DNA from: Anaerolineales bacterium
Lineage (GTDB): Bacteria; Chloroflexota; Anaerolineae; Anaerolineales; UBA11579
Direction: 5' to 3'
NCBI GenBank assembly: GCA_019454165.1
Contig: CP075367.1
Span: 131,971-195,970, forward strand
DNA length: 64,000 bases
The notes under the pieces are model-generated. The model searched no databases and was not told the origin of the DNA. It saw nothing but the letters and a program-made list of their open reading frames with translations. Position numbers and translations under genes: made by a program. Below, in pieces: positions 48,486 to 57,503 of this stretch (within the stretch, counting starts at the first letter, position 1; each line of letters begins with the position of its first letter).

Positions 48486-48494
48486 GGGTACTAC

Positions 48495-48610
48495 TTGTGC
48501 GCATTTCCTCCGCCGGCATGATCCGGATCAGGTCGTACGGGTCGCAGACTTCGGTCTGCCTCTCAGCTCCCGCGGCGTTCTTGCTGCCGCAAAGCTCCCC
48601 GAGCGTATGT
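48495..48610 (-). ncRNA. TPP riboswitch (THI box)
   Basis: On the minus strand the aptamer runs CTCGGGGAGC (48603-48594), then GCTGAGAGG, GACCCGTACGACCTGATCCG and GATCATGCCGGCGGAGGAAA, which matches the THI-box consensus (CUGAGA, ACCUGAUCUGGAUAAUGCC, GCGnAGG). A hairpin with GCGGCAGCAAGAACGCCGC forms the variable P3-like arm. TPP binding should stabilise the aptamer and free the downstream hairpin to shut off thiN and the transporter. Confidence 0.96.
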
Positions 48611-48635
48611 TGTGGCTTCTAGTATATCGTGTTGT

Positions 48636-53417: not shown

Positions 53418-54434
53418 TCAGGAAGGCAGTGAGGGCAATTCCAGCAGCAAAACTTCCAGCGCCAGGCGGGTATTTACATTCGTTTCCAGCTGGGCCAGGG
53501 TGTGTTCCACGGCTTGCAGGGCGCTGGCGGCGCCCGAAAAGCCGATTTGCTGGCCAACCGAGCTGATCTCTGCCGCTCGGTCGGTGTTTGCCAGCGCTAC
53601 CGTGGCCCCGGAGGCGCTTACGAGCACATCCCGCCAGTACGAAAGCCAGACCAGAAGCAGATTTTTGACCTGCTCGCGGTCCTTGCTGGCCTTCTCAGCA
53701 AACGCAAAGCGCTGCACTTTGTTGGCCGTCAACAAACTCTGCAACGAATCCAGCCACTGCGCACGGCTTTCGAGCAACCCGGGCTCCTGATGCAAGCGCA
53801 TGGCCAACCCGGGCAGCCCCTGGCTCACGGAGGCCAGCACCCGCGCCTGCTCAGCCTCCACGCCCAGACGGGTTTGCAATGCCGGAGCCAGTTCGGCGGC
53901 CGGCAGCGGGCGCAGACGCAGTACTTCGCAACGCGAGACCACCGTAGCGGGAATGCTGTCGGCGTCCAGCGCGGTCAGGCACAGGATGACCGAAGGGTTC
54001 GGCTCCTCCAGCGTCTTGAGCAATGCATTGGCAGCTTCGTCACTGGCGTGATGGAAGTTGAGCACCAGGGCGATCTGGTAACGTGCCTCCAGCGGCGTAA
54101 GGGACAGCGAGCGGGTCAGCGCCCGCAGCGCATCGATCTTGATCTCGCGGTCACCCTCCTGGCGCTCGACCAACAGCAGGTCCGGGTGCTGCCCGCGGCC
54201 GAAGCCGCGGCAGGCGCGGCATTCGCCGCATATCTCTCCCGGCGCGGGCGGCTGCGTGCAGTTGGCCGCGGCCGCCAGACGCAAGGCCAGGCTGCGGCGG
54301 CCAACACCCAGCGGCCCGGTGAACAGGTAGGCGTGGCCCAAGCGGTTGTCGGCGATCTGGCGGCGCAGCAAACCGACCGCCCATTCGTGGCCCAGCATGC
54401 CCCAGTTGGTGTTTAAAGCAATGGGTGCTTCCAT
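53418..54434 (-). CDS. holB: DNA polymerase III delta-prime subunit
   Basis: A clamp-loader subunit of about 338 residues. It shows WAVGLLRRQIADNRLGHAYLFTGP, a P-loop-like GPLGVGRRSLAL in which the Walker Lys is Arg (delta-prime does not hydrolyse ATP), zinc-site CGECRACRGF, HHASDEAANALLKTLEEPN and VVSRCEVLRLRPL. It helps load the sliding clamp onto primed DNA. Starts at 54434 (ATG) and 54443 (GTG) are both possible. The ATG lies in the loop of a perfect inverted repeat. A TAGAAT lies 11 bases before it. Confidence 0.92.
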   Translation of the reverse strand: MEAPIALNTNWGMLGHEWAVGLLRRQIADNRLGHAYLFTGPLGVGRRSLALRLAAAANCTQPPAPGEICGECRACRGFGRGQHPDLLLVERQEGDREIKIDALRALTRSLSLTPLEARYQIALVLNFHHASDEAANALLKTLEEPNPSVILCLTALDADSIPATVVSRCEVLRLRPLPAAELAPALQTRLGVEAEQARVLASVSQGLPGLAMRLHQEPGLLESRAQWLDSLQSLLTANKVQRFAFAEKASKDREQVKNLLLVWLSYWRDVLVSASGATVALANTDRAAEISSVGQQIGFSGAASALQAVEHTLAQLETNVNTRLALEVLLLELPSLPS

Positions 54435-54447
54435 TAGAAGCACCCAT
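54421..54447. promoter_or_regulatory. Perfect 11-bp inverted repeat around the holB start
   Basis: ATGGGTGCTTC (54421-54431) and GAAGCACCCAT (54437-54447) flank a five-base loop that carries the holB ATG. It may act as a protein-binding site or as an mRNA hairpin that displays the start codon. Confidence 0.5.
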
Positions 54448-54474
54448 TCTACTCTTTGCTCACTCCGCGCTCTT

Positions 54475-55227
54475 TTAGCGCGTGCTTTTCTTTTTAGCTT
54501 TGGTCTTGGCCTTCGTCTTGGCCTTGGCTTTTGCTTTCGGCTTCGCCTTCGCTTTGGCCTTGGACTTTGCCTTTGTCTTCGCCTTGGACTTCGGCGCAGT
54601 CTTCACTTTAGCTTTTGCCTTTGACTTGGCTTTGGTTTTTGCTTTCGCCTTGGGCGCAGCTTTGGCCTTCGCTTTTGGCTTCGCCTTGGCTTTCGCTTTC
54701 GCCTTGGCTTTTGGTTTCGCTTTCGCTTTGGCTTTGGGCTTGGCTTTCGTCTTGGCCTTCGCTTTCGGCTTCGCCTTAGCCTTCGGCTTGGGCGCCGCGG
54801 CAGCGATCAGCGCCGACGGCGCTTCCACAACCGGCAGCGTCGGCGTCATCGGCTCAGGCTCCACTTCAGCTTCGGTTTCCGCTTCGCTGGCTCCCCAGGC
54901 AGATGCACTGTCCGAGCCGGCGTCATAGCCCATGTCATCCGCTTCGGCGGCGGCACCCATCTCGGCAGGCTCGTCCACGCGCAGGAACACTTCATCTCCA
55001 GCCCGCACGGCATCGCTCACCAGAATGGCCACATCGTCGCCGGGGTGGGCTTCCTCCACGCTGTTGTGCTCGATCTGCATGGAGCTGACCAGTTCCACAA
55101 GGTCTGTGCTGGAGCCCACAATATGGATCTCGTCACCCACCTTCAACGGGGCGCTCAGGCTCAGTACCGCCGCACTGGGGCCGCCGAAGAAATGTGTGAC
55201 TACACCAATTTTCTTCTCATTGTCCAT
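54475..55227 (-). CDS. EF-Tu domain II-like protein fused to a histone H1-like Lys/Ala tail
   Basis: A 250-residue three-part protein. Residues 5-85 (KIGVVTHFFGGPSAAVLSL, APLKVGDEIHIVG, SSMQIEHNSVEEAHPGDDVAI) match the small beta-barrel proteins annotated as translation elongation factor-like, related to EF-Tu domain II. Residues 86-140 are an acidic Glu/Ala/Ser linker. Residues 146-250 are near-pure KAKAKPKA repeats with Thr, Ser and Pro interruptions, as in histone H1 or bacterial Hc1/AlgP tails. The ATG at 55227 fits the barrel; an upstream in-frame start adds no homology. It is a lone gene divergent from pcrA and adjacent to holB. Confidence 0.88.
   Translation of the reverse strand: MDNEKKIGVVTHFFGGPSAAVLSLSAPLKVGDEIHIVGSSTDLVELVSSMQIEHNSVEEAHPGDDVAILVSDAVRAGDEVFLRVDEPAEMGAAAEADDMGYDAGSDSASAWGASEAETEAEVEPEPMTPTLPVVEAPSALIAAAAPKPKAKAKPKAKAKTKAKPKAKAKAKPKAKAKAKAKAKPKAKAKAAPKAKAKTKAKSKAKAKVKTAPKSKAKTKAKSKAKAKAKPKAKAKAKTKAKTKAKKKSTR
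54478..54792 (-). repeat. Coding tandem Lys/Ala repeats
   Basis: About 105 codons of irregular Lys-Ala/Pro-Lys units form the tail of the preceding gene. Codon use mixes AAA/AAG and GCC/GCT/GCG, so the DNA repeats are imperfect; unit number may vary between strains. Confidence 0.85.
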
Positions 55228-55310
55228 GTGTTTCTCCTCCAAGACTGCTGGAATGATGAAATTACTATACATCATGTGAGAGGGGCTTTCAACGCCAAGA
55301 ATCGCTACAG

Positions 55311-55322: not shown

Positions 55323-57503
55323 ATGGCAGACCTTGCTGCGGGGCTCAACTCGCAACAACAACAAGCATTGCACGCCGGCCTGGGGCCGGTTTTGGTGCTG
55401 GCCGGCCCCGGTTCGGGCAAAACCCGCGTGCTGACCCACCGCATCGCCCACCTCATCAGTGATCTGGGGGTCAACCCCTACAACATCCTCGCGGTTACTT
55501 TCACAAACAAAGCTGCCAAGGAGATGAACTCCCGTGTAGAGGCCCTGCTGGGCGGCCGCCCGCGCGGCCTGACCCTGGGCACCTTTCACTCGATCTGCGC
55601 CCGTTTGCTGCGCCAGGAGGCCGATAACCTGCCGGTCAGCAAGAACTTTGTGATCTATGACGCAGATGACCAGATCTCCCTGGTGCGCCAGGCGCTCAAA
55701 GACCTGAACGTGGACGAAAAGATGCACCGCGCCGGCGGCGTCCATGCCAGCATCTCGGCCGCCAAGAACGAGCTGGCCCTGCCCGAAGACATGCCTATCA
55801 ACAGCTACCGCGACGAGGTGGTGGCCCGGGTCTACCAGCGCTACCAGCAAGCCCTGATGGCCAACAACGCCGTGGATTTTGACGACCTGCTGCTTTGGTC
55901 GGCTCGCCTGCTGGAAGACAACCCCGAGGTGCGCCAGCGCTACGCCACCCGCTACGAACACATTCTGGTGGACGAGTTCCAGGACACCAACCAGGCCCAA
56001 TACAGCCTGCTCAAGCACCTCGCCTCTGTCCACCGCAATATCTACGTGGTGGGTGATACCGACCAATCGATCTATCGCTGGCGCGGCGCCGATTATCGCA
56101 ACGTGCTGCGCTTCGAGGAGGACTACCCGGATGCGCAGGTGATCCTGCTCGAGCAGAATTACCGCTCGACCCAGCGCATCCTCGACGCCGCCATGGCCGT
56201 GATCGACCGCAACCCGCACCGCACGCGCAAGCACCTCTTCACGGACCGCGGCCACGGCAGCAAGATCATCTACCAGCAGACCCTCAATGAAGAGGAAACC
56301 GGCAAGTTCGTGGTCGAGAGCATCGCAACCGCCATCGCCGCCCGCGGCGCCCGCCCGGGGGACTTCGCCGTGATGTATCGCACCAACGCCCAGTCCCGCC
56401 TGATCGAAGAAGCTTTCCTGCGCGCCAACCTGCCCTACAAGCTGGTCGGCGCCCAGCGCTTCTACGGCCGCCGCGAGATCAAAGACGTGCTCTGCTACCT
56501 GCGCCTGGTCTTCAACCCAAATGATGAGGTCAGCCTGGGCCGCGTCATCAATGTGCCCACCCGCCGCATCGGCATCAAGAGCCAGGCCGCGTTGCGCACC
56601 ATCGCATTGCAGAACAAGACCACGCCGGGCGCGCTGCTGATCCACATGGGCGCCAATCCGGAAGACCCGCGCTTCGCGCCGATCTCATCCCCCACCGCGC
56701 AGGCCATGACCCGCTTCGGCCAATTGCTGGCCCGCTGGAACGAACTGGCCCAGGCCGGCGCCGAACCCATGCCGCTGATGGACCGCATCCTTGCCGATGT
56801 GGATTACCACGGCTACCTGATGGCCGATGGACCGGACGAAGAAGCCCAGGATCGCTGGGACAACGTGCAGGAGCTTCGCCGCCTTGCCGCCGAATACGCC
56901 GGCAAGACCCTACCGGAGTTCCTCGAGAACATCGCCCTCGTATCAGACCAGGACACCATCGACGAATCCGGCGATGTGCCCACCCTGCTCACCCTGCACG
57001 CCGCCAAGGGCCTCGAATTCTCCACCGTGTTCATCACCGGCCTGAACGATGGCACCCTGCCGCACCAACGCGCCCTGGATGACCCCGAAGAGATGGAAGA
57101 AGAACGCCGCCTATTCTATGTAGGCATCACCCGCGCCAAGGACCAACTGGTATTGGTGCACAACATGTACCGCAGCAGTTATGGCTACGCCGAGGGCACG
57201 CTGCCCTCGCGCTTTTTGGATGATCTGCCGGATGAACTCATCGAGGGCGGCAACCAAACCCGCCTGGAGCATCCCAACCGGCCTGACCGCTGGCAGAACC
57301 CGCGCCAGCGCAGCGCGCCCATCTTGCAAACCCAGTTCAAGCCAGGCATGAACGTGCTGCACCCCACATGGGGTGAAGGCATGGTGCTCAACAGCCGCAT
57401 TCAGGATGATGATGAAATGGTGGACATCTTCTTTCAGGATGTCGGCCTCAAAAAAGTGATGGCGGCTTTCGCCAACCTGCAACCACTACCTAAAGGCAAA
57501 TAA
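55323..57503 (+). CDS. pcrA: UvrD/PcrA-type DNA helicase
   Basis: A 726-residue superfamily 1A 3'-5' helicase. Motifs in order: Q-motif LNSQQQQALHAG, Walker A LAGPGSGKTRVL, Ia VTFTNKAAKEM, TLGTFHSICARLLR, II LVDEFQDTNQAQY, III VVGDTDQSIYRWRGA, IV LEQNYRSTQRIL, V LLTLHAAKGLEF, VI EERRLFYVGITRAKDQL. The C-terminal RNAP-binding Tudor-like piece (GMNVLHPTWGEGMVLNS) is present. It acts in nucleotide-excision repair, fork clearance and plasmid replication in other bacteria. It lies 3 bases before galE. Confidence 0.96.
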   Translation: MADLAAGLNSQQQQALHAGLGPVLVLAGPGSGKTRVLTHRIAHLISDLGVNPYNILAVTFTNKAAKEMNSRVEALLGGRPRGLTLGTFHSICARLLRQEADNLPVSKNFVIYDADDQISLVRQALKDLNVDEKMHRAGGVHASISAAKNELALPEDMPINSYRDEVVARVYQRYQQALMANNAVDFDDLLLWSARLLEDNPEVRQRYATRYEHILVDEFQDTNQAQYSLLKHLASVHRNIYVVGDTDQSIYRWRGADYRNVLRFEEDYPDAQVILLEQNYRSTQRILDAAMAVIDRNPHRTRKHLFTDRGHGSKIIYQQTLNEEETGKFVVESIATAIAARGARPGDFAVMYRTNAQSRLIEEAFLRANLPYKLVGAQRFYGRREIKDVLCYLRLVFNPNDEVSLGRVINVPTRRIGIKSQAALRTIALQNKTTPGALLIHMGANPEDPRFAPISSPTAQAMTRFGQLLARWNELAQAGAEPMPLMDRILADVDYHGYLMADGPDEEAQDRWDNVQELRRLAAEYAGKTLPEFLENIALVSDQDTIDESGDVPTLLTLHAAKGLEFSTVFITGLNDGTLPHQRALDDPEEMEEERRLFYVGITRAKDQLVLVHNMYRSSYGYAEGTLPSRFLDDLPDELIEGGNQTRLEHPNRPDRWQNPRQRSAPILQTQFKPGMNVLHPTWGEGMVLNSRIQDDDEMVDIFFQDVGLKKVMAAFANLQPLPKGK

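Follow-up and report, generated by a model that had tools for sequence, protein, structure and literature searches.

The minus strand of the 64,000-nucleotide stretch of DNA analysed here (the window) carries at positions 54475..55227, stop codon included, a gene for a 250-residue protein in which a small barrel is joined through an acidic linker to a Lys/Ala tail. This architecture, as given in a preliminary description, was confirmed by translation, by a structural model, by composition and by a codon-position test, and homologues share it; the gene and its architecture are real and are conserved within the window's genus. The preliminary description had also regarded the fusion of this barrel with a lysine tail as unknown elsewhere, and had proposed a listing of tailed homologues. 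That listing did recover tailed forms, C-terminal in the window's genus and N-terminal in other lineages, and the fusion is not unique: Lys-rich N-terminal extensions recur on the same barrel, and the combination of barrel and polybasic extension arose at least twice. The window protein is part of a recurring architecture, and in the literature searched, which covered few subscription journals, we found none that describes this barrel with a tail. Binding to a polyanion is a plausible role for the protein.

The gene and its product

The ATG at 55227 is preceded by a Shine-Dalgarno-like GGAGGAG (55234..55240, minus strand), which presumably functions as such, and by a promoter-like stretch (55264..55292, minus strand) that matches the sigma-70 consensus at 10 of 12 positions (shuffle mean 0.2). 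An alternative in-frame ATG upstream would give a protein of 266 residues; it adjoins the promoter-like match and lies 5' of the Shine-Dalgarno-like stretch. The antisense frame at 54482-54928 is the complement of the Lys/Ala codons. We also noted a 12-pair inverted repeat at 54420-54448, in the gap between the tail gene and holB and overlapping the holB start region; terminator-like sites showed no excess over shuffles. Elsewhere in the window, a TPP riboswitch was recognized at 48487-48611 on the minus strand (60.1 bits; gathering score 54.3).

Structure prediction, which had been proposed as a check, returned a barrel for residues 1-83 (54979..55227, minus strand) when these were modelled alone (mean pLDDT 93.8). 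The Pfam match to EF-Tu domain 2 (PF03144) scored 21.7 bits for the whole protein and 24.4 bits for the barrel alone, below the cut-off of 30.3. We nevertheless assign the barrel to this type, because 64 of 69 diverse relatives matched the same family at E <= 0.01 and because the predicted structure is a six- to seven-strand barrel of the EF-Tu domain 2 superfamily. By these results the claim of a translation-factor-type barrel is borne out, and the match is not spurious. The narrower designation, EF-Tu domain II-like, holds for the type of barrel but not for the nearest fold, since the predicted structure is closest to the C-terminal domain of a U32 protein (PDB 4he5; 15-18% identity), with EF-Tu-type barrels second. 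The corresponding Pfam family, PF16325, scored 14.8-16.5 bits, below its cut-off of 28.2.

The window protein differs from each of these relatives in overall plan. Unlike domain 2 of EF-Tu or EF-1A, its barrel is free-standing and carries a Lys tail, and neither Pfam nor NCBIfam matched a GTP-binding domain in the 250 residues, so that it is not recognizable as a translational GTPase. Unlike the U32 proteins, it has no Peptidase_U32 domain by Pfam, and has an added tail. Weak matches at E <= 0.1, far below the model cut-offs, were also obtained with the models for TrhP, a tRNA hydroxylase (27 of the 69 barrels), and for Pbp11 (22 of the 69). Pbp11 of Pyrococcus abyssi (PDB 7anu) is kin to the barrel in fold and sequence, although the window barrel scored only 16.5 bits with the NCBIfam model (NF041207, named tRNA-binding protein), against an equivalog cut-off of 100. 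Pbp11 is a tRNA binder, as that name also states, and is linked to the archaeal proteasome; we know of no Lys/Ala tail on it, and we found no paper on Pyrococcus Pbp11 in the literature searched, in which few subscription journals were covered. By sequence, the same barrel makes up stand-alone proteins in many phyla, which where titled are called only 'translation elongation factor-like protein' (P0034, P0115, P0118 and P0132) or 'putative protease', and the titles shown assign them no function.

Since the U32 C-terminal domain is the closest fold, and TrhP matched 27 of the barrels weakly, the barrel could be a free-standing U32 C-terminal domain that acts in trans with a U32 RNA hydroxylase. 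We regard this as highly improbable: no Peptidase_U32 match reached E <= 1e-10 in the window's genome, and among 400 Chloroflexota genomes, of which 56 had the barrel, 36 had U32 and 3 had both, there was no association between the two (Fisher p 0.45).

The linker, residues 84-143 (54799..54978, minus strand), has 15 Asp or Glu and no Lys or Arg in 60 residues. The tail, residues 144-250 (54478..54798, minus strand), has in its 107 residues 50 Lys, 1 Arg, 35 Ala and 9 Pro, with no Asp or Glu, for a net charge of +51. In the full-length model, 10-residue blocks past residue 90 averaged pLDDT 45-56, which is consistent with disorder in this region, and by composition and low pLDDT the tail is of the long disordered Lys/Ala/Pro kind known from AlgP, PhaF and H1. 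It is translated and under purifying selection, because its substitutions relative to seven same-genus genes are concentrated at third positions, which varied most in every comparison; against L116, for example, changes over 98 codons numbered 12, 8 and 53 by position, with 43 synonymous and 16 nonsynonymous changed codons. Among 23 C-tailed proteins, that of the window included, together with seven genus loci in addition, tail length ranged from 52 to 139 residues while the Lys fraction held at 0.39-0.54, and on this basis we read the tail as a generic polycation.

This variation in length, together with the loose tandem repeat formed by the tail DNA, would also suit a low-complexity expansion of little function, tolerated on an ordinary barrel. 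We think this improbable, given the third-position changes, a Lys fraction near one half, the presence of the tail in every one of the 8 genus genomes that have the gene, and the recurrence of polybasic extensions elsewhere at the other end of the barrel. As to the linker, it had been suggested that its acidic residues mask the tail. As a general mechanism this is ruled out, because most tailed relatives are without an acidic linker: there are 4 or fewer Asp or Glu at that place in 19 of the 23 C-tailed proteins, and 8 or more in the other 4.

Polybasic extensions at either end of the barrel

In named genomes we confirmed at least 452 relatives, of which the best 80 were kept; judged by their titles, they come from many groups of bacteria and archaea, and tail-less barrels are widespread across many lineages of both. 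The stand-alone barrels are mostly tail-less, 71 of these best 80 loci (of at least 452) being without a polybasic extension. In the other 9 the extension is C-terminal in 4 and N-terminal in 5. The C-terminal ones (L003-L006) all belong to the window's genus. The N-terminal ones are from Marinimicrobia (L049), Deltaproteobacteria (L053), Saganbacteria (L061), WOR-1 (L072) and Margulisbacteria (L081), and these and their relatives combine the same barrel with a polybasic extension at the end opposite to that used in the window's genus. A terminal-Lys score was passed by 8 of the 80 barrels (L049 failing), as against 7 of 742 ORFs in their neighbourhood; when the genus contributes a single count, the comparison is 5 of 77 barrels, again from the best 80 of at least 452, against 7 of 742 ORFs (p 0.003).

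A search with the Deltaproteobacteria protein (L053) as query gave 201 matches. Lys-rich N-terminal extensions were present in 57 of the best 120, and in 55 of 63 when only proteins of 110 aa or more are counted; the list is biased to tailed forms by the query and by its length range. A stricter cut-off was used for these counts, as a looser N-basic cut-off admitted 60 of 148 proteins, at least two of which (P0044 and P0139) are not Lys-rich. In 29 of the 57 N-type Lys-rich barrels listed among the best 120 of 201, a Pro-rich linker is followed by a C-terminal motif resembling K-F-L/F-x-F (P0033, P0037, P0039 and others; also L049, L072 and L081), which may be a docking peptide.

A tree of 162 rows, built on 81 columns and mostly unresolved, required 15 changes for the N-terminal extension and 2 for the C-terminal tail, of which its starred branches force 6 and 1, respectively; a quicker tree of 258 rows required 14 and 1. 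The six C-tailed rows group with the tail-less L120 in a starred set of 7; three Zipacnadia barrels join this set in a larger starred one of 10, outside which all 36 N-tailed rows fall. At least two origins are indicated because the extensions are at opposite ends and occupy separate places in the tree; we claim only two, because the rows scored as tail-less include some that start with the barrel itself and are possibly fragments. At one locus, L077:5332-6237 (plus strand), the barrel ends a 302-residue open frame, the N-terminal part of which we take to resemble a CBS-domain pair.

Distribution in the genus and gene neighbourhood

A search of proteins with the window barrel as query brought up 23 relatives; the tail is present in 22, and the remaining one (P0005) is a fragment that stops before it. 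With the excised barrel there were 5 matches: three come from short records and end soon past the barrel, and two (P0027 and P0028) are free-standing barrels. Within the window's genus the barrel is present in 8 of 11 genomes, always with the tail. The other three lack the barrel but keep pcrA and holB, with a lipoprotein-like frame between these two, and also keep the kinase gene. Because the gene is absent from these 3 of 11 genomes, the protein is likely an accessory factor. The lipoprotein-like frame is about 185-200 aa long (L128:919-1509, with no Pfam match, and the same place in L129 and L130), and two tailed genomes (L006 and L124) have the barrel plus two such frames.

In other genera of the same family, a tail-less barrel was found in two genomes (L120/L126 and L121/L127), a count that leaves out a weak match in G402 (E 2.5e-5, in a 612-residue frame). 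Matches occurred in 63 genomes of the 400-genome Chloroflexota sample. Seven of these have nothing better than weak matches (E > 1e-6) that lie in longer frames, and without them the barrel is counted in 56. Besides the window, none of 57 full-length Chloroflexota barrel matches (29 in L084-L112 and 28 more, one partial second match in G242 being left out) has a C-terminal Lys tail, and no Lys-rich N-terminal extension was seen upstream of the 37 barrels read (the 29 and the eight longest of the 28); in G075 the upstream frame is rich in Arg, but no Met precedes the start of the barrel. In this sample, the tail is seen within Chloroflexota only in the window's genus.

The next gene downstream in the window is holB, for the DNA polymerase III delta' subunit (53418..54443, minus strand; PF13177 and PF09115 over cut-off, NCBIfam scores below the equivalog cut-offs), and a pcrA/uvrD-type helicase gene is divergent from the barrel gene (55323..57503, plus strand; PF00580, PF13361 and PF21196 over cut-off, TIGR01073 at 804.6 bits against a cut-off of 911.2). 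The order pcrA, barrel, holB, histidine kinase was found in all seven same-genus loci tested, two of which have extra frames between barrel and holB. In a sister genus, a tail-less barrel occupies the same pcrA-holB place (L126), and in L127 pcrA alone adjoins the barrel. Because the L126 barrel has no tail, the pcrA-holB place predates the tail. The neighbours are thus as the preliminary description gave them, but they tell nothing specific about the tail and give no support to a role in replication.

Outside the window's family, pcrA was not found near the barrel within the flanks examined; the single match, in L047, is some 5 kb from it. There was no conserved operon partner, the largest neighbour cluster covering 11 of 76 other named loci (from the best 80 of at least 452); this commonest neighbour is the riboflavin gene for lumazine synthase, and its eight nearest examples are all on the opposite strand. 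In 3 of the 76 (L017, L030 and L045), a gene of the rtcB RNA ligase family, with archease before it, lies 31-272 bases upstream of a tail-less barrel. A phage origin was discarded, as there was no PHROG match.

Possible ligands

As our best explanation, held tentatively, we propose that the window protein is an adaptor directed to RNA. Recognition of an RNA or ribonucleoprotein partner, of the tRNA or rRNA type, would fall to the barrel, and the tail would contribute a strong, sequence-independent electrostatic grip. We infer that the ligand is RNA, what kind of partner is bound and that affinity is gained; RNA is favoured because the barrel's kin in fold and sequence are for the most part translation factors, the others being Pbp11 and the C-terminal domain of a U32 protein, and because the letters of the tail vary while its charge holds. 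The weak TrhP and Pbp11 matches, the recurring extensions and the presence of rtcB upstream in 3 of 76 other loci (best 80 of at least 452) likewise suggest this reading. Several points are against it. By analogy, the Lys/Ala tail resembles the DNA-binding tails of AlgP, PhaF and H1 as much as RNA-binding ones, and Lys-rich disordered domains can serve in binding either nucleic acid. The barrel is acidic, with a predicted net charge of -9, so that one would not readily expect the barrel alone to bind RNA. Also, no operon partner in RNA metabolism is conserved, the neighbours in the window act in replication and repair, and 3 of 11 genus genomes manage without the gene.

The main rival, which we consider somewhat unlikely, is a nucleoid tether of the PhaF/AlgP kind, in which the tail would coat chromosomal DNA and the barrel would hold cargo, or else a nucleoid-associated protein. 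AlgP and PhaF also join a head domain to a long disordered Lys/Ala/Pro tail of similar composition, and these tails have been connected with DNA as well as with granules of polyphosphate or PHA (PMC9239181, PMC3574117). In those reports, however, their heads are helical or coiled-coil where that of the window protein is a barrel, and they repeat KPAA where the window tail is mostly KA and KP dipeptides. At E values up to 1, Pfam matched the window protein to barrel families only, with no AlgP-, PhaF- or H1-type head, and the barrel's kin are of translation-factor type. The adjoining holB and pcrA genes in seven of seven same-genus loci would fit such a tether, but their arrangement around the barrel is older than the tail.

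AlgP suggests a further alternative, in which the lysine tail would hold polyphosphate or another granule and the barrel would bring a partner to it: AlgP is reported to associate with polyphosphate granules and to space them, its C-terminus being required (PMC9239181). We encountered in passing no tie of the gene to polyphosphate in the window or in the relatives, and rate this reading as quite improbable.

Returning to the RNA-directed adaptor, a broader form of it is possible, although unlikely as a whole. A widespread bacterial and archaeal barrel family would repeatedly have acquired tails, at one end or the other in different lineages, and so have become a polylysine-tethered RNA adaptor. 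Such proteins would be the prokaryotic counterpart of nucleolar snoRNPs with their lysine-rich tails, and would be candidates for a physical link of translation-type RNA recognition to the nucleoid. The snoRNP tails are reported to be disordered and to concentrate their proteins near nascent rRNA (PMC11528048). Polybasic extensions that recur on the barrel and are absent from most of its members hint at its class of ligand, and the natural tailed and tail-less versions offer a direct experimental route to that ligand.

Lysine-rich tails were also noticed on other proteins. In the window's own genome, a 116-aa frame (L135:1246-1596, plus strand) has a small folded-looking N-terminus and a K/A tail, KAKAKTKTKAKAKSK, with no Pfam match; it sits between frames that we take to resemble sufD and sufS. 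Neighbours of the tail-less barrels at L030 and L051 have Lys-rich C-terminal tails, and we take them to resemble RNA polymerase alpha and ribosomal protein S3, respectively.
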